A stretch of 64,000 bases of DNA from Opitutaceae bacterium TAV5 (GTDB taxonomy: Bacteria > Verrucomicrobiota > Verrucomicrobiia > Opitutales > Opitutaceae), in assembly GCA_000242935.3 (NCBI GenBank), contig CP007053.1:1798001-1862000 (forward strand). Reading direction: 5' to 3'. This document shows positions 26,027-45,373 of the stretch, piece by piece (within the stretch, counting starts at the first letter, position 1; every line of letters starts with the position of its first letter). The notes below the pieces were generated by a model that did no database searches, was not told the origin of the DNA, and worked only from the letters and a program-made list of their open reading frames with translations. Both the position numbers and the translations under genes were made by a program.

Positions 26027-26560
26027 ATGAGAACGTTCCTCACACTTCTCCCCCTCGTCGGCCTCCTGCTGGGCGGCTGCGCGAATGGTGCCGGTCCACA
26101 GCCTCTCTACTCCTCTGCCTCGCCGAGGCCGCCGACGAAATCCGAACTGGAAGCCGAGAGGATGTATGCCGAAAACCGCGCCGCGACTGCGGCCCGCGTC
26201 GCCGAGCGTCAGGCCTTCCTGGCAAAACATAACGCAGAAATGGCCCAGGCCAGGGAAAGGATACTCAACGCTTCCGTGTCGAAGGAATGGGCGGCGGAAG
26301 CCGTGAAGAGCCGCGAGGCTTACATTGCCGCGCATCCCGAATTGTCCGACGACCTGCGCGAGCGCATCCGCAACGGGAAGCCCGCCGCCGGCATGGATTG
26401 GGAACTGCTCAAAGCCATCTTTCCCCGCATGGGCATCGTTACCGTGGCCGGCGCGATGGAAGACGGAAACCTCGTGTGCTACTACCACGACGGGAGCCTC
26501 GGCACGTATTACCATTTCAATGACTGGAAGCTGACGCGCTGGCGCTCGTGGGCGAACTGA
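26027..26560 (+). CDS. Prophage-encoded lipoprotein (moron candidate)
   Basis: A 177-residue protein with a lipoprotein signal peptide (MRTFLTLLPLVGLLLGGC), with the lipidated Cys at about residue 18. The mature part has a charged helix (TKSELEAERMYAENRAATAARVAERQAFL) and a C-terminal segment, HPELSDDLRERIRNGKPAAGMDWE followed by LLKAIFPRMG. That segment resembles the 'ILNGKVxxGMTxExV' domain of BamE/SmpA-like lipoproteins. It has its own upstream palindrome and a strong terminator at 26583, so it looks like an independently transcribed moron that could change the lysogen's envelope. Confidence 0.72.
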   Translation: MRTFLTLLPLVGLLLGGCANGAGPQPLYSSASPRPPTKSELEAERMYAENRAATAARVAERQAFLAKHNAEMAQARERILNASVSKEWAAEAVKSREAYIAAHPELSDDLRERIRNGKPAAGMDWELLKAIFPRMGIVTVAGAMEDGNLVCYYHDGSLGTYYHFNDWKLTRWRSWAN

Positions 26561-26582
26561 CCGCCCCCTGCATCGCCCTTGC

Positions 26583-26613
26583 AAGCCCGCTGCCAAGTCG
26601 CAGCGGGCTTTTT
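26583..26613 (+). terminator. Rho-independent terminator after the lipoprotein gene
   Basis: AAGCCCGCTGC-CAAGTC-GCAGCGGGCTT followed by TTT gives an 11-bp perfect stem, a 6-nt loop and a T-run, 23 bp past the lipoprotein stop codon. It isolates the lipoprotein from the late operon. Confidence 0.85.
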
Positions 26614-26723
26614 CGTGCCCGGATTTTCCGGCTTTCGTGAAATTTTCCGGGAATGGATGGAATGGACGGAATGGGGGGCTAACCGCTTTTCGGGGATCGG
26701 TGCATCATGGGGCCTTCCAACCG

Positions 26724-27263
26724 ATGCCCGACACAACCGAAAATCCACTACAGCAAAAAACCGCCGCCGGTTCAAGCGCGGGTGTTGCGGTTCCGATCGT
26801 CCACGAGCCCAGCGCACTCACCCTGCGCCGCCGCCGCATCGAGCGCACGTTCCCCCGTCCCCTCGGCCTGCGCGTGCTCGCCGAGTACGAGCTCAAGTTT
26901 GCCGTGCTCTCGGACTTCCCGGTGCATGACGAGTTCGAGTACTTTTTTGTAAAGAAAGGCTTTGTCACCGACCTCGCGTCGGTCCCCCGCATCTTCTGGC
27001 GGATTCTTCCTCCCTTCGGCCGCTACACCCTCGCCGCCGTCGTCCACGACTGGCTCTACCGGCACCAGCATTTTTGCCCGCACAACAGCCGCTGGCCGCT
27101 CATCCCCCGCGTGCTGGCGGACCGCATCTTCCTGCGCGCCATGCGCGCCCTCGGCGTGGGCCTCGTGCCCCGCACCACCATCTACCTCGCGGTCCGCGCC
27201 TTCGGGTGGGTCGCGTGGAGAAAAAACCTCCGCAACCGTATCCGAATGTCAAGGACACCATGA
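26724..27263 (+). CDS. DUF1353-family phage protein
   Basis: A 179-residue protein with the DUF1353 hallmark: a beta strand, GFVTDLASVPRIFWRILPP, then GRYTLAAVVHDWLYR and a downstream DRIFLRAMRALGV. The family is widespread in phages near lysis or packaging genes; its His/Asp residues (VVHDWLY) suggest a hydrolase-like or metal site, but its role is unknown. Start at MPDTTEN (26724) was taken; the longer frame adds an unlikely Trp/Gly leader. It overlaps the next lipoprotein gene by 4 bp. Confidence 0.82.
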   Translation: MPDTTENPLQQKTAAGSSAGVAVPIVHEPSALTLRRRRIERTFPRPLGLRVLAEYELKFAVLSDFPVHDEFEYFFVKKGFVTDLASVPRIFWRILPPFGRYTLAAVVHDWLYRHQHFCPHNSRWPLIPRVLADRIFLRAMRALGVGLVPRTTIYLAVRAFGWVAWRKNLRNRIRMSRTP

Positions 27264-27628
27264 AGACACTGATCCCGCTCGCCCTCCTCGCCGCCGCGCT
27301 GCTCGCCGCTCCCGGCTGCTCGCTGCTCAAGCACAACTCGCCGCAGGATGCGGCGACCACGATCCGCGTGACCTCCCCCGCCGGCGCTTCCTACGCCGTC
27401 ACGATCGCCAAGGACACGCAATTTCAGAACCTCAGTCTGCGCTTCGGTGACATTGCCCTGGCCGCGGACTCGATCACCGGCAATGCCAGCGCGCCGCTCG
27501 CCGTGGCCGGCGAGAACAATGCCAAGGCTGGAGCCGCCCTCGGCGATACCGTGAAGGCCGCCGGAGCCGCCATCGGCGACGCCGCCGAAGGCGTGGCCAC
27601 GGCCGTCAAGGAAGCCGTCGTCAAATAA
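27260..27628 (+). CDS. Prophage small lipoprotein
   Basis: A 122-residue lipoprotein: signal peptide MKTLIPLALLAAALLAAPGC, with the lipobox Cys at 20, then a beta segment (TTIRVTSPAGASYAVTIA) and an Ala/Gly-rich helical tail (AGAALGDTVKAAGAAIGDAAE). Overlapping ATGA with the DUF1353 gene indicates coupling. It may be part of the lysis cassette (Rz1-like lipoproteins are small and outer-membrane bound), though it is not proline-rich like Rz1. Confidence 0.65.
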   Translation: MKTLIPLALLAAALLAAPGCSLLKHNSPQDAATTIRVTSPAGASYAVTIAKDTQFQNLSLRFGDIALAADSITGNASAPLAVAGENNAKAGAALGDTVKAAGAAIGDAAEGVATAVKEAVVK

Positions 27629-27658
27629 CCCGCACGTCACCCGCCCGCCCTCCCGCCG

Positions 27659-27979
27659 ATGGATTTTCCCGCCTTCGTCACGCCGCTCTTCTTCGCGCAA
27701 TTCGTCGCGTCCTCAGTCATCATGCTCTTCCTCTGGATGAAGCTGCGCAAGAGCGCCCGTGAGGAGGCCGGCGAAGTGGAGCCGCGGGCGAAGCCGCCCC
27801 TGCATGTGCAGTTCGTCACCCGCCGCGAGTTCGAGCTGTTTTCCGGCGAGGTGAAAGCCGCTCTGGTGAAAGTGTCCGACGACGGCGAGAAGCGGATAAT
27901 CCGCATCTACGACAAGATGGATGAACAGACCCGGCACCTGACCGGTGTAATCACAAACGCACTACGCGATAAAAAATGA
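27659..27979 (+). CDS. Mu gp25-like membrane protein
   Basis: A 106-residue protein with one N-terminal membrane helix (FAQFVASSVIMLFLWM) and a cytoplasmic coiled coil with VTRREFELFSGEV...YDKMDEQTRHL. The topology and position (two genes before the small terminase, next to a winged-helix protein) correspond to Mu gp25 (DUF2730-like). Its role is unknown; a lysis accessory role is possible. Overlaps the next gene by 4 bp. Confidence 0.62.
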   Translation: MDFPAFVTPLFFAQFVASSVIMLFLWMKLRKSAREEAGEVEPRAKPPLHVQFVTRREFELFSGEVKAALVKVSDDGEKRIIRIYDKMDEQTRHLTGVITNALRDKK

Positions 27980-28227
27980 ATCCCGTCCTCATCCGCAAAA
28001 CCATCCTCATCGAGCTTGCCTCCGCGCCCGAGATGCTGACCGAGGGCTCGCTGCTGCTGCTCGTCAAGCAGCGCATCCCCGAGGTGACCAAGGCAGACCT
28101 CGTGCAGGAGCTCGTCTGGCTGCGCGATCACGGCTATGCCGACTACGTCGCCGACACCTGGGACCTTCAGGATCGCGACCTCAACGCCTGGAAAATCACC
28201 ACCAACGGCAGGCTTTCCCTGAAATGA
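27976..28227 (+). CDS. Mu gp26-like small winged-helix protein
   Basis: An 83-residue protein with the order helix (LIRKTILIELASAPE), helix (LLLLVKQRIPEVTKADLVQELVWL), helix/turn (RDHGYADYV) and C-terminal strand (WKITTNGRLSLK). This is a minimal winged helix that matches the protein preceding the small terminase subunit in Mu-like phages. Confidence 0.62.
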   Translation: MNPVLIRKTILIELASAPEMLTEGSLLLLVKQRIPEVTKADLVQELVWLRDHGYADYVADTWDLQDRDLNAWKITTNGRLSLK

Positions 28228-38025: not shown

Positions 38026-38607
38026 ATGCCCTACATCGCCACACTCGACATCATGCAGGCCGTCAAGGCTTCCCTTGCCACGCTGCGCATCGATCCCGCC
38101 GATCCCGAGAGCGCCCCGCTGTTCGAGACGATCGACATGCACATCAACAAAAAGCTCAAGGAGGCGCTGAAAAACCTGCTCATCCTTGACCAGCGCGTGT
38201 GCCTGATCGTGCCCGGCGGCGAGAATTACGAGAACATCAAGGAAGGTCGGACGATCCGTAGCGAAAAAGATATTACGTTCGACTTGCTCATCGCCGACCG
38301 CGACTGGGCGGAGAAAGGCCACGACGCCACCTTCGGCGGGCCGGAAAACATCGGCATCCTCCGCATGGCCGACCGCGTGGTCGAACACTTCCTGGAGACG
38401 CCGCAACTCGGCATGCCTTACGTCTGCATCGTGCCCACGGCCATGCGCCCGATCGACGTGCCGGCCGACGACGTGAAAGACAGCCCCGGCCGCGAGTGCT
38501 ATGTCATCAATTACGAGTCCCCGGCCGGCTCCGCCATCCTCACCCCCACCGTGCCTTGGTCCGCCCCTTCCCCCCGTCCCTACGTCGCCCCGAGCCCCAT
38601 CCACTGA
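38026..38607 (+). CDS. Tail terminator-like protein (Mu gp37-like position)
   Basis: A 193-residue protein with mixed alpha/beta order (LLILDQRVCLIVPGGENYENI, DITFDLLIADRDWAEKG, VVEHFLETPQLGMPYVCIVP) as in phage tail terminators. It lies directly before the tail tube gene, the usual place for this function. No strong family signature. Confidence 0.5.
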   Translation: MPYIATLDIMQAVKASLATLRIDPADPESAPLFETIDMHINKKLKEALKNLLILDQRVCLIVPGGENYENIKEGRTIRSEKDITFDLLIADRDWAEKGHDATFGGPENIGILRMADRVVEHFLETPQLGMPYVCIVPTAMRPIDVPADDVKDSPGRECYVINYESPAGSAILTPTVPWSAPSPRPYVAPSPIH

Positions 38608-38648
38608 CAGTCTCACCCGTCATCCGTAACACATAAACCAATACACCT

Positions 38649-39197
38649 ATGCAGACAGAACGCACCATCATCGGAGCCCATAGTTATATCGTGCCGGTCG
38701 GCACGCCCTTCACGCTCCCCGCGCCCGGCGGCCAGGCATCCCGCATCCGGAAGCCCGGCCCCGACGATCCCGCCGCCTGGTTCGATACCGGCGTGGCCGA
38801 CTGGACCATCACCAACACCGGCACAACCGTCGATTTCAACGCCCCGGCCCCCGGCATGCGCGTACTCTACGACAAGATCACCACGAAGACCGGCATCAAG
38901 TTCAAGGGGAAGCTCATGGAGTTGAGCAACATCGTCTGGCAGATGCTCCTCAGCACACAGACCCTGCCGGCCAGCCCGGAGGAGGGAGGCCAGTACAACC
39001 CGCTCTCCGGCGAGGCCATCGTCCGCACCTGGATGAAGCTGGAGCAATACAACCAGCGCAACCAGCGCATCAATGTCCTGGACGTGTTTGTCGCCATGAA
39101 CATCCCCGGTGATGTGGCCTTCGGGGAAAACCCCGTGGACGTGGATGTGGAGGCCGACGTGCTCTATTCCCCGCTCAACACGGGAAAACTGGAATAA
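38649..39197 (+). CDS. Major tail tube protein
   Basis: A 182-residue beta-rich protein (YIVPVGTPFTLPAPGG, a long beta segment, LSNIVWQMLLST, MNIPGDVAFGENPVDVDVEAD) with the size and texture of siphovirus/GTA-like tail tubes. A perfect hairpin follows the gene. Its presence with a tape measure shows that the virion has a long tail. No sheath protein gene is visible, so the tail is most likely non-contractile. Confidence 0.68.
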   Translation: MQTERTIIGAHSYIVPVGTPFTLPAPGGQASRIRKPGPDDPAAWFDTGVADWTITNTGTTVDFNAPAPGMRVLYDKITTKTGIKFKGKLMELSNIVWQMLLSTQTLPASPEEGGQYNPLSGEAIVRTWMKLEQYNQRNQRINVLDVFVAMNIPGDVAFGENPVDVDVEADVLYSPLNTGKLE

Positions 39198-39202
39198 AAA
39201 CC

Positions 39203-39223
39203 GGCCTCCGGCGTCCGGAGGCC
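39203..39223. terminator. Hairpin after the tail tube gene
   Basis: GGCCTCCGG-CGT-CCGGAGGCC is a perfect 9-bp stem with a 3-nt loop, 6 bp past the tail tube stop codon. It lacks a T-run, so it may be an attenuator or mRNA stabiliser that raises tube mRNA relative to the following genes. Confidence 0.6.
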
Positions 39224-39248
39224 AGTAACCGGAAAACCAATACACCCG

Positions 39249-39653
39249 ATGATTTTCACCGACGATTTCACCGAAGAACCGGCGCTGCCGATTGGCGCAT
39301 CGCCCTTCGGCCCGCCCACCGACCAGCCCGCGCAGCCGATCGCCGCTTCGCCTTTCGGCCCGCCCACCAACCAGCCCGCCCTTCCCATCGGCGGGCAACC
39401 CACCGAACCGCCCGCCATCCCGCTCATGTCCTCCACCTTCAAGCCCGCCTTCGTCGGCCTCTCCGGCATCGGCTCCCTCTCCACCATCCAGGCGACCATT
39501 GCCGATGCCGGCACCGTCCTGCAAGGCGTCGTCAATGACGAACTCAAAAGCTACCGCGTGCGCTCCGGCACGGACGAGGAAGCCCATCCCGGCATCGTCC
39601 ATCCCGCCAACTTCGACGCGGACGAAAACCCCGTCGTCTTTGTGATGATCTGA
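39249..39653 (+). CDS. Proline-rich repeat protein in the tail module
   Basis: A 134-residue protein whose residues about 11-58 consist of three degenerate 16-residue repeats (PALPIGASPFGPPTDQ type). A short globular end (STFKPAFVGLSGIGSLSTIQ) follows. No family recognised. Proline-rich repeats between tube and fibre-like genes could act as a linker or an adhesion element. Confidence 0.6.
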   Translation: MIFTDDFTEEPALPIGASPFGPPTDQPAQPIAASPFGPPTNQPALPIGGQPTEPPAIPLMSSTFKPAFVGLSGIGSLSTIQATIADAGTVLQGVVNDELKSYRVRSGTDEEAHPGIVHPANFDADENPVVFVMI

Positions 39654-39660
39654 TCACGTC

Positions 39661-40578
39661 ATGAAAAAATCACTACTCATCCTCTCCGGCCTCCTGGCTC
39701 TTTGGCCTCCGGTCTCTGTCTTCGGCCAGAGCGGCCCGGTGACCAAAAATCCGAACACGGATGAAATCCGCGAAGACCTCACGTTCGGCCCCGGGCGCAC
39801 GCTCACGATCGCCTCCGGCGGCCTGATCGTGGGCGCGGAAAATGCCATCCGTTTCGAGGGCGGCGTTTTCCTGTCCTCAGAGCAGGCAATGCCGACTGTG
39901 CCGCCGTCCGCTCCTCCCGTCGTGATGATGCGCGCCGAATCCGGCACGCTGGCCTTCCTCTCGGACCTGTCCGGCTATGTGCCGACATCTCGCACGATTA
40001 GCGCGAGCGGTCTCGCCACCGGCGGCGGCAACCTGACGGCAAACCGGACCATCACAGTCCCCGCTGCCTCGACCGCCGAGGCGACGGCCGGCACAGTCAC
40101 CAACCGGGCCATGACGCCGGCCTCGACCCGCGCCGCCATCGATGACCGGCCGCAGTACGCCATTTTCATCATCCCGATCGGTCCCGGATTTTTCGACTTC
40201 GAACTAAAAGCGAGCCTTTCGAATTTTGGCGAACACGCGCCGTTTACCGACCTGTATCTGTATTATCACTCGCCCGACCCGTCGCGGACGATCATCACAA
40301 GCCAGACCGGTCCCGTCCCGACCGTTTACTTTACTGACACGGGCTGGACGGACAAGCGGCGCTGGCGCAAGCAGAGCACGGACCAAAGCATTTGGGCGAT
40401 GCGCTCCAATAGCGGCGCGGTCATTCCCGCCGTCGTCGTCGTCGTGCCGGTCGATGCCACGATCAGGCCGACCAACGCCGGCCTCATCTGGTCGTATCAG
40501 CGCATCACCGCCACGGATTACGAACAGGTCTGGTATCCCATCGTCCCCACCTGGAGCACCGTCTCGCCTACCCCGTGA
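39661..40578 (+). CDS. Tail-fibre-like protein with a signal peptide
   Basis: A 305-residue protein with a convincing Sec signal peptide (MKKSLLILSGLLALWPPVSVFG, cleavage about 22-23), then a beta-rich part with fibre-type repeats (RTLTIASGGLIVG; TISASGLATGGGN then LTANRTITVP) and a globular C-terminus. Fibre-like repeats argue for adhesion, but a signal peptide is abnormal for a virion protein assembled in the cytoplasm. It may instead be an exported or surface protein carried in the tail operon. Confidence 0.62.
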   Translation: MKKSLLILSGLLALWPPVSVFGQSGPVTKNPNTDEIREDLTFGPGRTLTIASGGLIVGAENAIRFEGGVFLSSEQAMPTVPPSAPPVVMMRAESGTLAFLSDLSGYVPTSRTISASGLATGGGNLTANRTITVPAASTAEATAGTVTNRAMTPASTRAAIDDRPQYAIFIIPIGPGFFDFELKASLSNFGEHAPFTDLYLYYHSPDPSRTIITSQTGPVPTVYFTDTGWTDKRRWRKQSTDQSIWAMRSNSGAVIPAVVVVVPVDATIRPTNAGLIWSYQRITATDYEQVWYPIVPTWSTVSPTP

Positions 40579-40630
40579 CACCTTTCCCGATACGTCGGGA
40601 TTTCACACCAAACACCAACCGTAAATCATC

Positions 40631-41416
40631 ATGAGAAAATCCATCCTCATCCTCTCGGCTCTCGCTTTCGGCGCGGGCCTCGCCGTCGCCTCGCCCACCA
40701 GCGATGCCGTCTCCCTCCAGACCGGAGCCAGCGTCATCAGCACTGACTGGAATACCAAGATCGCCGCCGCCAAGGCCGTAAAAGATAGCGCTGCCGTCGT
40801 CACGCTCACCGCGCAGCGCAAGGCCGCAATCGCGGAATATAACGCCCTCCATGCGGAGGCAGTTGCCGCCCTCATCAACGACAGCATTGACGAGATCGTC
40901 CTGGATAACCCGGGGGCGGCCACCTGGCTCATCAAGCGCCACCTCTCCGACAAAAACACCGTTGACGGCGTAGTCGCCAGGGTGTTCGCCGACGATGCCG
41001 GGGACCGTGCCCTGGCGGCAAAACTCCTCACGATCAGCAATGGCAGCCAGGCGTATTTCTACCACCAGTACTATGCCTCCGCCGACGAACTCCGCGCTCT
41101 GGCCGGTTCGCCGAGCAGCGGCATTGCCTCCGCTGTCGGCAAGCGCGCCCGTGACCTCGGCCTCCTGGACGAAATTGTTCCGGACTATTACAAGCGCTGC
41201 CTCGGTCTCGGGCTGGTTCACAAAGGCTACGATGCCTGGTTCAACAAGCGCGTTCGTGCCACCTGGGCGACCGACCGCGCCGCGGCCCTGAAACTCCTGG
41301 AAGAAGAACAGGCCGGCATCGGTACGGTGTCCAACCAGACGCCCGCCACCAAGGCCCGCATTGACCAGCTGCGCGAGCTCTCCGCCCGCTTCGCCGAGAT
41401 CATCGCCCGCGGCTGA
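40631..41416 (+). CDS. Exported prophage protein, unknown function
   Basis: A 261-residue protein with a signal peptide almost identical in style to the preceding gene (MRKSILILSALAFGAGLAVA, cleavage near ASP). The mature part is helical (AKAVKDSAAVVTLTAQRKAAI; LGLVHKGYDAWFNKRVRATW; LRELSARFAEIIARG). No family recognised. Lies between the fibre-like gene and a third exported protein. Confidence 0.6.
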   Translation: MRKSILILSALAFGAGLAVASPTSDAVSLQTGASVISTDWNTKIAAAKAVKDSAAVVTLTAQRKAAIAEYNALHAEAVAALINDSIDEIVLDNPGAATWLIKRHLSDKNTVDGVVARVFADDAGDRALAAKLLTISNGSQAYFYHQYYASADELRALAGSPSSGIASAVGKRARDLGLLDEIVPDYYKRCLGLGLVHKGYDAWFNKRVRATWATDRAAALKLLEEEQAGIGTVSNQTPATKARIDQLRELSARFAEIIARG

Positions 41417-41424
41417 TAATCACC

Positions 41425-41496
41425 TCACACGGAGGCGCGCAGGCGCGGGATGATCCCGGCCAGCGCCGCGGTCCGCGCCCCCGCGCCTCCGTGTGA
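41425..41496. repeat. Long perfect-arm hairpin between exported-protein genes
   Basis: The arms TCACACGGAGGCGCG (41425-41439) and CGCGCCTCCGTGTGA (41482-41496) are perfect reverse complements. A second nested stem (GGCGCGG 41442-41448 with CCGCGCC 41473-41479) extends the structure. It separates the second and third exported-protein genes and could attenuate transcription. Confidence 0.72.
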
Positions 41497-41516
41497 GACA
41501 AAACCCGATACACCGC

Positions 41517-42038
41517 ATGAACACCTTGACACACATCCTCGGCGTCGCCGTCCTGGTCGTCGCTGCCTTGCTTGTCTCCGCCGCGCTTCGTGCCGACGAG
41601 TTTGACGATATTCTCGGACCGGACCCGGCTGTCCTCTCCTACGCGGAAGATGACCTCGATGTCCCCTGGACGCCGCCGCCTCCCTACGTGCTGCCGCCCG
41701 CGCTCGGCCCGGCCATTGCGCCGGCATTGCAGGACCTGCCCCTGCCTCCCGGCTTCACGGCGCTGCAATTCGACCAGATGCGCACGGCGTTGACGGTCGC
41801 CCTGTCGCGCCAGACCGTGCTCACGTCCACCGGGCTGGTCGTCCTTTGCCCTCCCGTGCTCGGCGACCCGCTGAAATCGCTTGAGTCCTGGCTGCGCATC
41901 GCCCGCGCCGCCGACATCACGGAGTTGCCCACGTATGCCAGCGGCACGCCCGCCTGGGTCCGCTGGCGGCAACTCTCGGCGTCCCCGCTGACCACCGAGG
42001 CCGACTGGATCGGCTTTTACCGGTCCCTCCGGTCGTAA
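41517..42038 (+). CDS. Exported prophage protein with proline-rich linker
   Basis: A 173-residue protein that begins with a membrane or signal segment (LGVAVLVVAALLVSAALR), then PPPPYVLPPALGPAI and an alpha-helical C-terminus with several Trp residues. No family recognised. It is the third exported protein in a row, directly upstream of the tail-chaperone gene. Confidence 0.58.
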   Translation: MNTLTHILGVAVLVVAALLVSAALRADEFDDILGPDPAVLSYAEDDLDVPWTPPPPYVLPPALGPAIAPALQDLPLPPGFTALQFDQMRTALTVALSRQTVLTSTGLVVLCPPVLGDPLKSLESWLRIARAADITELPTYASGTPAWVRWRQLSASPLTTEADWIGFYRSLRS

Positions 42039-42069
42039 CCGAAAACACACTACAACACTCCCTTTTCAC

Positions 42070-42576
42070 ATGACTATTGCCAAAGCCAAGCCCCTCCACC
42101 TCATCTTCGGCGGCGAGGAAATCACCGCCCGCTTCATCGACGGCAACCAGGTGACGGCCCGCGTGCGCGCCATGCCCGTCCGCTACATGCCGGCCGTCCT
42201 CAAGCTCTGCACCGACGAGACCGCGCTCCTGGAGTTCGTCTGCCAGGTGCCCGACACCGACGACGCGGAGGGCCAAAACCGGCCCTTCCCCGGATGGCAG
42301 CCCGTGCCGCCCGGCTGGGCCGACAACCTCACGGACGAAAGCCACGAAGAGCTTTACGAGGCCGCGAAGCGGCTAAATTTTACGAGGGCGGCGAAGTGGG
42401 CCGAGAGGCAGATCGCCGCCAAACAGTTCCAGACGCCGCTGATCCTGAGGGCGGACGAACAACTGATGCCGCTGGTGCAGCGCATGGCGGACTTGCTGCT
42501 CTCGTCACTGGCGCGATCCGGGTTACAGGCCAGCCCTGGGATGTCATCCTCGACACCTGGAACCTCGGCCAGTTGA
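42070..42576 (+). CDS. Tail assembly chaperone, short form (gpG-like)
   Basis: A 168-residue protein (PLHLIFGGEEITARFIDG...AKWAERQIAAKQFQTPL...MADLLLSSLARSG), followed immediately by the tape-measure region. After about residue 142 the sequence becomes implausible (ASPGMSSSTPGTSAS), while the overlapping -1 frame continues as a plausible protein. This is the pattern of a tail chaperone pair made by programmed frameshifting, as in lambda gpG/gpGT and Mu gp41/42. The slippery site was not identified with certainty. Confidence 0.72.
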   Translation: MTIAKAKPLHLIFGGEEITARFIDGNQVTARVRAMPVRYMPAVLKLCTDETALLEFVCQVPDTDDAEGQNRPFPGWQPVPPGWADNLTDESHEELYEAAKRLNFTRAAKWAERQIAAKQFQTPLILRADEQLMPLVQRMADLLLSSLARSGLQASPGMSSSTPGTSAS

Positions 42577-42818
42577 TCCTCCTCCAGCGCGAGACCGACC
42601 GCGCCGAGGCCCGCGCCGCGCTCGCCAACCTGCAAAACCTCATCGTGGCGATCCCGGCCGCGCTCGACAACAGCAGCGGCGTGAAGGGCAACTACACGAA
42701 GCGCGAAAAAAAGCTGCTCGCCCGCTGCAACGGCCTCGCCGCCACCGGCGACGACAAGCCCGCCCGCCGCTGGAGCGTATCCAAAACCAAAACACCCAAG
42801 CGCCGCCCGTCGGCGTAA
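42490..42818 (+). CDS. Tail assembly chaperone -1-frame extension (gpT-like)
   Basis: A reading frame without its own start codon near the beginning of the plausible part (GQPWDVILDTWNLGQLILLQ then RETDRAEARAALANLQNLI), ending in a Lys/Arg-rich tail. It overlaps the end of the short form in the -1 frame and stops 5 bp before the tape measure. It probably exists only as the C-terminal part of a frameshift product that binds the tape measure. The left boundary given is approximate. Confidence 0.6.
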
Positions 42819-42823
42819 CCTGA

Positions 42824-45373
42824 ATGCCCGAACAAGACACAGTCTCCATCCTCCTGGACGTAAAATCCCGGCTCGAAGAACTCGACAAGACCGTCCGGTC
42901 GATGGGCAACCTGCGCGACCAGACGAAGAACGCGAAGGATGAAGCGCAGGGGCTGGCCGCGCTCTTCAAGCAAGGCCTGGCGATCGACGTGGCCCGCCGC
43001 GGCATGGACCTGCTCACCGGCTCCCTCCGGCAATTCGTCGCCGGCTCCTTCCAGATGGCCGGGCAGGTCAAGGATCAGTCCGAAGCGCTGGGCCTCTCCA
43101 CCGAAGCCTACCAGGTGCTCGGCGAAGTGATCCGCGATGTGGGCGGTGACCAGGCGAAGCTGGTGGAAATGGTTGCCACGAACAACCGCAGCCTGATCGA
43201 GGCGCGGACCGGCGCGGGCAACGCCGCGCAAGCCTACCGCGAACTCGGGCTGAGCGCCTCGGAACTGGAAGGGCTGACAGTGGAGCGTCGGTTCGAGGCC
43301 ATCGGCAAGGCCGTGCTCAACGCCTCCGACCAGACAAAAGCCTTTGGCGCGGCCGGTCATCTGGTCGGCACGCGGCAACTGCCCGTGCTGCTCAACATGC
43401 TCAAGCAGCTTGGCGGCGAGGGCTACGACAACCTCGCCGGGCAGATCGGAGACGCCGGGCGTATCATGAGCGACGATACAATCGCCCGCCTGGACAAGGC
43501 GCAGAAGGCGATCGAAAAGCTCAAGCAGCAGGCGACGATCGCGGTCGGCGAGGCTATCGGCGATGTCATGGGCGACAGCGACCCTTCGGGCGCGAAAGAC
43601 ATCGTCAGCGGCGCGGGCAAGGCCTGGCAATGGGTCGTGGCCAGCGCCCGCAACGATGCCGAGTTTATCGGGAAAACGATGGCCGCTGCGAGCGAACTCT
43701 GGAAGGGGTTTACGACGCCCGGCTCGCTCGACCAGTCGCTGACAAATACCCGGCTCGCCTGGAACGCGCCGGAAGAAGCGCGCCTCCAGGCATGGAAGGA
43801 TGCGACCGCCCGCGAGCAACAGCGCAAGGACGCCGAAGCCGCCGCCGAGGCACAACGCAAGCGCGATGCCGAATCCGCCGCGGAAAAGGCGAAGCAAATC
43901 GAGGACACCCTCTCTGCCGAGACGGAGATCAACAAGGTGTTGCTGGATCGTGCGACGCTCCAGAATGACCCCAACCAGAGCCCGGAACAAAAACGGCCGG
44001 CCCTTCTCAAATCGCTGCAAGAAGAAATCGCCCTGCGCGATCGCCTGATCGAATTGACGAAAGCGGCTCCGGACGACGGAAAGCCGCCACAGGTGCGAGC
44101 CCTCGCCATCGCTCAACTCGAAGCGCAGGCCGCCGCGGCGAGGAACCAGCAAAAAGCCCTTCAGGATGCGGCGGCAGATTTCTCCCGCCTGGAAAAACAG
44201 CGCGACGCGGAGGTCGATCTTGCGCGAGTGATCGCGCAACGAAAGGAAATCGAATCCGCGCCGGACTTGACTGCCGAGGAAAAGCGGGCGGCGCTCATCA
44301 AGTCATTGGAGCGGGAGTTGGAATTGCGGGCGGAAATCCTCCTGCATACCAGAAACAAACCGCTGGAAAATGTAGATGGGGCGCAGGCAGCGCGTGACAA
44401 AACAGTCGATGCGCTGACGGCCGAAATCAATACGCTCCGAAACCAGCTTGCCGCGCAGAAAGGTAATGCCGCTTACGATACGCGCCAGCGCGGGCTCGGC
44501 GAGCGGGCGCTCGGCACGGAAGACCCGCTCGTCAACAAAAACTACGTGGAGACCGGCGACGGCCTGGGCACGGGCATGATGGAGTGGGCGGAAGGCCTCG
44601 GCTCCCGCGGCGAACAGCTTGCGGACACGATGCGCGGCACGCTCGGCTCGGCCGTATCCGAAATCTCTGACGGCATATGGGGCTGGCTGGAAGGCACGTC
44701 CTCCTTTGGCGACGCCCTGATCAACCTCGGCGATATTTTTGCGAAATCGCTCATCCAGACCATCGTGCAGATGGGCGTGCAGTGGCTGGTGCAGCAGGCG
44801 GTGATCGAGGGCGGCATTTTGTCCATCAGCGGCATCATGTCGCTGTTCCGCAAAAAGGACGCGGCGGAAACGGTCGCCACGGAAGGCGCGAAGACGCCGC
44901 TCCTCGCCACCAACGCCGGCCTCGCCTCGGTGGGCAGTTTCGGCGTGGCGGCGGCGCTCGGCCTGGCGGCCTTGCTGGCCGTGCTGGCGGTCTTCTCCGG
45001 CATGCGCGAACAGGGCGGGCCGGTGACGGCGGGCCGCGCCTACGTCGTCGGCGAAAAACGCCCCGAGGTGTTTGTCCCGAACCAGAGCGGCACGATCCTG
45101 CCGAGCGTGGACGCGCTGGAAGGCTTGTCACTGCCGGCCGGCGACCAGCCCTCCGCGCTGGCGGGAAATGTCGCCGTGGCCGGCGGCGAGGCCGGCGGCC
45201 TGGCGGCGATCGCCCGGCAAATGGCCGCCAGCAACCGCCCGCAAAAACCCTCCCGCACGATCGTCGTGGACGAGCGCCGCCTCGCCGAGCGGCTGCGCGA
45301 CGACCCGGACTTCAAGAGCGTTGTCCAGGACATCATCACCGGCGATCCCGGGGCCTTCGGCATCAACTCCTGA
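42824..45373 (+). CDS. Tail tape measure protein
   Basis: An 849-residue protein that is largely helical (coiled coils about 10-40, 330-560), with a hydrophobic segment near 700-730 (VGSFGVAAALGLAALLAVLAVFSGM) and a C-terminal region. The N-terminus (SEALGLSTEAYQVLGEVIRDVGGDQ) matches the tape-measure TP901-like core. Its length, about 850 residues, would give a tail of roughly 125 nm by the usual rule of about 0.15 nm per residue. It also carries a membrane-active segment for DNA entry. Confidence 0.85.
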   Translation: MPEQDTVSILLDVKSRLEELDKTVRSMGNLRDQTKNAKDEAQGLAALFKQGLAIDVARRGMDLLTGSLRQFVAGSFQMAGQVKDQSEALGLSTEAYQVLGEVIRDVGGDQAKLVEMVATNNRSLIEARTGAGNAAQAYRELGLSASELEGLTVERRFEAIGKAVLNASDQTKAFGAAGHLVGTRQLPVLLNMLKQLGGEGYDNLAGQIGDAGRIMSDDTIARLDKAQKAIEKLKQQATIAVGEAIGDVMGDSDPSGAKDIVSGAGKAWQWVVASARNDAEFIGKTMAAASELWKGFTTPGSLDQSLTNTRLAWNAPEEARLQAWKDATAREQQRKDAEAAAEAQRKRDAESAAEKAKQIEDTLSAETEINKVLLDRATLQNDPNQSPEQKRPALLKSLQEEIALRDRLIELTKAAPDDGKPPQVRALAIAQLEAQAAAARNQQKALQDAAADFSRLEKQRDAEVDLARVIAQRKEIESAPDLTAEEKRAALIKSLERELELRAEILLHTRNKPLENVDGAQAARDKTVDALTAEINTLRNQLAAQKGNAAYDTRQRGLGERALGTEDPLVNKNYVETGDGLGTGMMEWAEGLGSRGEQLADTMRGTLGSAVSEISDGIWGWLEGTSSFGDALINLGDIFAKSLIQTIVQMGVQWLVQQAVIEGGILSISGIMSLFRKKDAAETVATEGAKTPLLATNAGLASVGSFGVAAALGLAALLAVLAVFSGMREQGGPVTAGRAYVVGEKRPEVFVPNQSGTILPSVDALEGLSLPAGDQPSALAGNVAVAGGEAGGLAAIARQMAASNRPQKPSRTIVVDERRLAERLRDDPDFKSVVQDIITGDPGAFGINS

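Follow-up and report, generated by a model that had tools for sequence, protein, structure and literature searches.

A recurring set of three exported-looking genes in the structural regions of Opitutaceae phages

Three consecutive genes in the tail module of a prophage of Opitutaceae bacterium TAV5, a termite-gut bacterium, here termed SP1, SP2 and SP3, belong to a set that recurs in phages of the family, and from their sequences we consider it probable that the products make up an exported module which acts on the host envelope and is not a part of the particle. That this module, which would be expressed late, helps egress, by easing breach of the envelope or release of progeny, is a more tentative proposal, to which we give less than even weight. 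The argument draws on signal-like N-termini, a fixed gene order, the nearness of SP1 to the gene before it, occurrence in apparently unlike phages, joint variation of the second and third genes and the many loci in which genes of lysis-like appearance come next after the trio. The window, by which we mean the whole stretch of 64,000 nucleotides analysed, comprises positions 1,798,001 to 1,862,000 of contig CP007053.1 (forward strand), and coordinates given without a locus or contig name are positions within it.

The three genes and their predicted products

All three genes lie on the forward strand, SP1 at 39661–40578 (305 aa), SP2 at 40631–41416 (261 aa) and SP3 at 41517–42038 (173 aa, with a GTG at 41493 as alternative start). 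Each was taken from the list of open reading frames (ORFs) and aligned with its relatives, and SP1 and SP2 were also modelled. The earlier note had stated that each gene opens with a Sec-type signal or anchor, and this was borne out, the ORFs being present and their N-termini fitting a crude rule of our own making (hydrophobic stretch, positive n-region, possible cleavage site), which took the place of SignalP. By this rule SP1 and SP2 of the window have strict signals, and SP3, when read from 41517, has the hydrophobic stretch with no net positive charge ahead of it. The signal-peptide prediction that the note had proposed as a check thus gave a hydrophobic start in all three genes, and the feature recurs in 19 Opitutaceae loci (window included), with a strict signal in 19/19 SP1, 19/19 SP2 and 14/19 third genes, L078 being counted with L066 as failing on charge, and a hydrophobic N-terminal stretch in every one of the 19 third genes. 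With starts left free within 40 codons, the background rate of the rule was 60 of 484 other called genes of the loci. A wider tally of Opitutaceae and distant loci (25/27, 27/27 and 22/26) is not used as evidence, starts having been unrestricted for the trio and limited for the background; in this tally the best-scoring start was internal for SP1 of the window, L016, L022 and L057 and for SP3 of the window. The gene caller was home-made and overlooked SP3 of L056 and L060 and SP1 of L107.

After residue 25, SP1 of the window has no cysteine and SP2 and SP3 have one each, so disulphide formation is an unlikely reason for export. Our lipobox rule found none in the window trio and flagged SP1 of L061 and L106 and SP3 of L021 and L024. 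None of the three proteins reached a curated Pfam or NCBIfam cut-off, and a search of PDB sequences returned nothing for alignments A6 and A3 up to E 1; the sole PDB match of the SP2 alignment A1, ribosomal protein L29 (0.036–0.047), was taken as chance.

The alignment of 17 SP1 sequences gives a signal peptide (about residues 1–23), a middle part that varies and, at the C-terminus, a conserved domain rich in beta structure (about residues 160–305). Tail-fibre-like repeats had been noticed in SP1, a fair but weakly founded description: residues 109–158 are fibre-like, matching one faecal phage record at 58 % over 50 residues in the single-protein search, and the PHROG matches are weak, the best and only one under 0.001 being PHROG 15547 (6.1e-4, function unknown), with two PHROGs called tail protein at 0.13 and 0.42. 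For SP1 the model is of modest confidence (mean pLDDT 60.5; 70–93 in blocks of the C-terminal domain) and gave no Foldseek match at E ≤ 0.001; Ig-like rows returned by VIA-align for the C-terminal domain reached at most Z 5.2, too low to mean much. In the locus stretches, a model of this domain matched at E ≤ 1e-3 SP1 proteins and two long relatives only, and no signal-less tail fibres. The idea that SP1 is an exported copy of a virion receptor-binding domain was therefore set aside. The long relatives (1,097 aa in L023, about 1,050 aa in L061) each stand second to an SP1, and in both an upstream ATG yields, by eye, a signal-like start; the one scanned, that of L023, bears Listeria-Bacteroides repeats (3.5e-36).

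SP2 consists of a signal peptide and an all-helical mature protein (18 sequences aligned). Its AlphaFold2 model (mean pLDDT 90.2, pTM 0.80) had no Foldseek match at E ≤ 0.001 in PDB or BFVD, and VIA-align rows for 14-3-3 and designed helical proteins, at Z 7.5 or less, were likewise too low to mean much. As a single protein SP2 matched nothing among 50,697 phage records or in genome contigs. SP3 (11 sequences aligned) opens with a signal peptide or membrane anchor, continues with a stretch rich in proline and closes with a C-terminal segment that is conserved; its PHROGs, Pfam and NCBIfam matches are all at chance level, and a profile search of genome contigs with its alignment found matches in six loci, all from Geminisphaera colitermitum TAV2.

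Recurrence and surroundings of the set

The trio had been placed between the tail tube and the tail-chaperone and tape-measure genes. The tape measure, which marks the tail module, holds up (42824–45373, forward strand; PHROG 2854, 1.7e-18) and is the second ORF beyond SP3; the tube (38649) and the chaperone (forward-strand ORF at 42070–42576) are named by position, with no supporting family match. Immediately 5' of SP1 on the same strand is a proline-rich ORF of 134 aa (39249–39653), with no signal by rule and a family match at chance level only, and the gaps ahead of SP1, SP2 and SP3 are 7, 52 and 100 nt.

Conservation in related prophages had been proposed as a further check, and the trio proved to be a recurring set rather than an artefact of start sites. 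Four matches to each of SP1, SP2 and SP3 were found in the TAV5 genome (7,417,673 bases in two contigs searched), and 12, 9 and 7 matches, respectively, in its genus mate TAV2 (genome G286). The SP1 loci of TAV2 number 11, since one of the 12 matches is the long relative of SP1, whose contig carries an SP1 as well. Two prophages are counted in TAV5 in the literature (PMC6920513), fewer than the four places where we find the trio. Two of these places, on contig G000:C1 at about 5145k and 6947k, score identically with each gene of the trio and have the look of a duplicated prophage. All eight IMG/VR contigs 2517572100_000002 to _000009 have an SP1 match, with the same scores as the TAV2 loci, and the viral contig matches all derive from three isolate genomes.

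The order SP1, SP2, third gene is uniform in the 18 Opitutaceae loci read. The third genes of L057, L058, L059 and L063 are exported-looking and have no SP3 match, L016 and L024 carry an extra ORF between SP1 and SP2, and in L065 843 nt separate SP2 from SP3. SP1 begins within 8 nt of the preceding gene in 15/18 loci, with a 4-nt overlap in seven, and the gap is 26–37 nt in L056, L057 and L065; the 18 loci of this gap set include L078 and leave out L016, and the reverse holds for the 18 of the gene-list set. The genes that precede SP1 have, in ten loci, a domain of about 75 aa in common, and we take it to resemble a fibre tip.

The phages concerned appear to differ in particle build. The trio adjoins a tail sheath (9.7e-119) and a collar fibre (4.2e-59) in L013, short-tail proteins in L022 (head–tail adaptor, 1.2e-104; tail protein, 4.4e-163) and portal-like proteins in L057 (5.5e-6) and L061 (4.8e-10), and the window tape measure has no match in G286, whereas the trio matches there. 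The few proteins tested from L021, L058, L059 and L063 gave a tail-fibre match in L021 (5.3e-19) and, weakly, matches to terminase (1.2e-4) and head (2.3e-4) proteins. Judged by these family matches, the same type of trio recurs in phages of unlike particle build, and since the set is common to unlike particles, the need that it serves is probably set by the host and not by the particle. As to phage type, L021, L058, L059 and L063 have a small P-loop protein beside the weak terminase and head matches.

Pairwise identities of SP2 and the third gene vary together (rho 0.89; 136 pairs of 17 loci, the third genes of L057, L058 and L063 included), and identities of the SP1 C-terminal domain follow neither the second nor the third gene (rho 0.05 and 0.09 over the same number of pairs and loci); these values are descriptive only, because locus pairs are not independent, and the phage-type labels used in the comparison are our own. 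Thus L024 and L021 share 91 % of SP2, 90 % of SP3 and 46 % of the SP1 C-terminal domain, and L024 and L064 share 92 % of that domain, with L024 absent from the best SP2 partners of L064 (43, 41 and 40 %).

A DUF1353-like, peptidase-like or lipoprotein-like gene directly follows the trio in half of the 18 loci (L013, L021, L022, L023, L057, L058, L059, L063 and L066), the label lysis-type coming from our reading of the gene lists, which Pfam or BLAST backs in some cases only. We know of no function for DUF1353. In L060 and L061 only small, membrane-bound-looking proteins follow; in the window, L016, L024 and L064 the genes beyond the trio lead to a tape measure, and in L056, L062 and L065 neither kind of gene follows. 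The window has what we judge to be a lysis-type block about 11 kb upstream of the trio, not beside it (26027–28227, forward strand), with a lipoprotein-like gene, a DUF1353 gene (3.6e-30), a second lipoprotein-like gene, a small hydrophobic protein and one more ORF, all but the DUF1353 gene being assigned by reading.

Proposed action at the host envelope and rival explanations

The earlier note had suggested receptor-modifying or surface-exclusion proteins, or a surface structure made by the lysogen under late control; the exported appearance, the late operon and the recurrence of the set agree with it, and receptor modification and surface exclusion are hypotheses. Apparent export, late coupling and independence of particle type together lead us to propose envelope action at the end of infection. 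Late lytic use is likelier than display by a lysogen, because in 15/18 loci SP1 is coupled to the preceding gene and in 9 to 11 of 18 the trio has after it genes that we judge to be lysis-type. SP1, SP2 and SP3 would gather in the periplasm or at membranes late in infection. There SP3 might serve as a proline-rich linker, periplasmic or anchored in the inner membrane, SP2 as a helical scaffold acting together with it and SP1 as a fibre that binds a ligand and can be exchanged, its C-terminal domain being conserved. The trio's target would be the envelope of the host, which it would most probably help to breach, or from which it would help progeny to escape. Several facts tell against egress. 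The phages carry lipoprotein-like and enzyme genes of their own, so that no gap in lysis functions is apparent; a lysis protein would not be expected to contain fibre-like modules such as those of SP1; four loci lead to a tape measure and three have neither gene type after the trio; and the third gene of four loci gave no SP3 match, just as the SP2 and SP3 counterparts of distant loci are mostly of unproven homology. Nor is such a module universal, as for P8625, a lytic phage from the same bacterial subdivision, no signal peptides are reported among its 52 proteins (PMC4642752).

The main rival, which we think less probable but credible, is that SP1 shields receptors or blocks readsorption: an exported fibre, freed or displayed late, would mask a common surface ligand and so spare progeny from adsorbing to debris or infected cells. 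The fibre-like stretch and conserved C-terminal domain of SP1 suit this explanation, as do the domain, to our eye fibre-tip-like, encoded just before SP1 in ten loci and the way in which SP1 assorts independently of SP2 and SP3, as a specificity part might. However, the tail fibres without a signal in the locus stretches gave no match to the C-terminal domain, the domain is alike in unlike phages, which probably use different receptors, and a Sec signal by itself leads to the periplasm only.

Lysogenic conversion, in which the prophage would have its live lysogen carry the trio on the surface, for adhesion or exclusion, appears unlikely. It accords with the exported look of the products, with the retention of the trio by several prophages per genome and with the adhesin-like character of the two long SP1 relatives, with their signal-like starts and, in one, the Listeria-Bacteroides repeats, but SP1 is coupled to a gene of the structural region, and promoter-like sites in 38500–42900 are at chance level (1 vs 0.8 expected). 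No Cor/Lom-type exclusion or conversion family was among the trio's matches in PHROGs and Pfam (E ≤ 1) or NCBIfam (E ≤ 0.05).

We regard it as improbable that the trio reaches the particle by an unusual route, its exported proteins binding to released virions at lysis. The genes do sit within structural modules and SP1 is fibre-like, yet the same proteins accompany particle types whose recognised tail parts differ, and a signal sequence would take them out of the cytoplasm, where tails are built; a tail fibre is expected to be cytoplasmic and to have no export signal, and SP1 has one in 19/19 loci by the crude rule. Least credible of all is that there is no real export and the hydrophobic N-termini reflect chance or wrong choice of start, for although the rule also flags 60/484 other genes, the feature is found in three consecutive genes in 19 loci and again in distant loci.

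An exported module acting on the envelope has partial precedents. Lom and Cor are exported 'moron' proteins encoded in lambdoid tail regions. The trio resembles them in that secreted host-envelope proteins are encoded among tail genes, and shares with them, by the crude rule, an exported appearance; Lom and Cor, however, are single genes of lambdoid phages, whereas here there are three genes, in unlike phages of hosts from another phylum and closely coupled to the preceding gene. Llp of phage T5 is an exported phage protein that acts at the host surface, as the trio may, but the window trio has no lipobox, shares no family with it and has no known receptor. Spanins and lysis cassettes are similar in being exported, and SP3 combines an anchor with a proline-rich stretch; as to neighbours, lysis-type genes lie beside the trio in 9 to 11 of 18 loci, the window not among them. 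They differ in that the window trio has no lipoprotein and the phages bear separate lipoprotein-like genes. The periplasmic tetratricopeptide repeat (TPR) protein YbgF/CpoB is the best match of 3/6 distant SP2 counterparts scanned, but all these matches fall under the curated cut-off and window SP2 has none (NCBIfam TIGR02795). Among the titles and abstracts covered on Opitutaceae, Geminisphaera and Verrucomicrobia phages, tail-region morons, Llp and exported phage proteins, with most subscription journals and preprints outside that coverage, none described such a module.

Relatives beyond the genus and the gaps between the genes

As single proteins, SP2 matched 1 of 286 genomes of the class, the TAV5 genome itself, and SP1 matched 2 of 57 relatives, TAV5 and TAV2. 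Alignment searches of the class found 3/384 genomes for SP2 and 3/384 for SP1, TAV5 included each time; the SP2 match in G256 (L108; alignment A1, 3.5e-4, positions 1–74) was set aside as chance, because its neighbours do not resemble phage genes. A wider alignment of the SP1 C-terminal domain (A6) matched 6/387 genomes of the phylum, including TAV5 and the marginal G618 (9.4e-4), the four clear ones being labelled as of the same phylum and not of the same class. By these searches the domain is a rare marker among the sampled genomes, and one that occurs in apparent prophages of other families and of at least one other class.

Three exported-looking genes stand in the same order in L106, L107, L122, L123, L124 and L125; in L109 the last two are swapped and SP1 is cut off, and in L126 and L127 the sequence breaks off inside the set or next to it. 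The C-terminal domain was recognised in L106 (1.9e-28) and L109 (5.3e-5) and, at only 2.8e-4 in a three-sequence set, in L107, which had been reached through an SP2 match (3.7e-6 in its genome); these three loci are not independent of A6, since A6 contains them. Searched as single proteins, SP1 of L106 and L107 matched nothing. In the distant loci the second and third genes are like SP2 and SP3 in their place and their export-like start, and their homology to these is largely unproven: profile comparison with hhalign gave probabilities of 16 or less, SP2 of L107 excepted. TPRs occur in half of the six distant SP2 counterparts scanned, and YbgF is the NCBIfam family that these three match best (2.6e-17, 1e-13 and 5.3e-7), the highest scoring 63.5 bits against TIGR02795, whose cut-off is 90.1; no TPRs were found in the second genes of L106, L107 and L124.

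We hold only loosely, and rather doubt, the broader suggestion that many Verrucomicrobiota phages share an exported three-part apparatus, made up of a fibre-like binder whose shaft is exchangeable and of a helical protein and a linker that vary together, that would loosen or re-shape the outer envelope for egress and be a kind of machine undescribed in the literature searched. The C-terminal domain, occurring as it does in several families and in no fewer than two classes, suggests a common element in the way phages exit Verrucomicrobiota or handle their surface, in a group few of whose phages have been studied.

Between SP1 and SP2 (40579–40630), the SP1 stop is followed by a small hairpin (40585–40600, forward strand) and an almost G-free, AC-rich leader. 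A hairpin with a stem of at least 5 pairs precedes SP2 in 19/19 loci, its stem sequence varying; it has at least 4 G–C pairs in 17/19 loci (vs 48/98 other gaps), and the last 20 nt of the gap hold at most one G in 19/19 (vs 28/98). The hairpin is thus real, though such hairpins are common here, and the gap and its counterparts in 18 other loci may perhaps act in translation or in RNA stability, or mark a joint left by recombination. Terminator-like sites in 38500–42900 number 8, with 3.6 expected. The gap between SP2 and SP3 (41417–41516) is largely filled by long inverted repeats, perhaps host repeats, and similar palindromes lie in the same gap of L021, L024 and L064. In L125 (6628–9577) the exported-looking trio is accompanied by a small membrane gene and a weakly phospholipase A2-like neighbour (0.0024, under cut-off) and is surrounded by genes that do not appear to belong to a phage; it would be a remnant or a cassette that has been retained.
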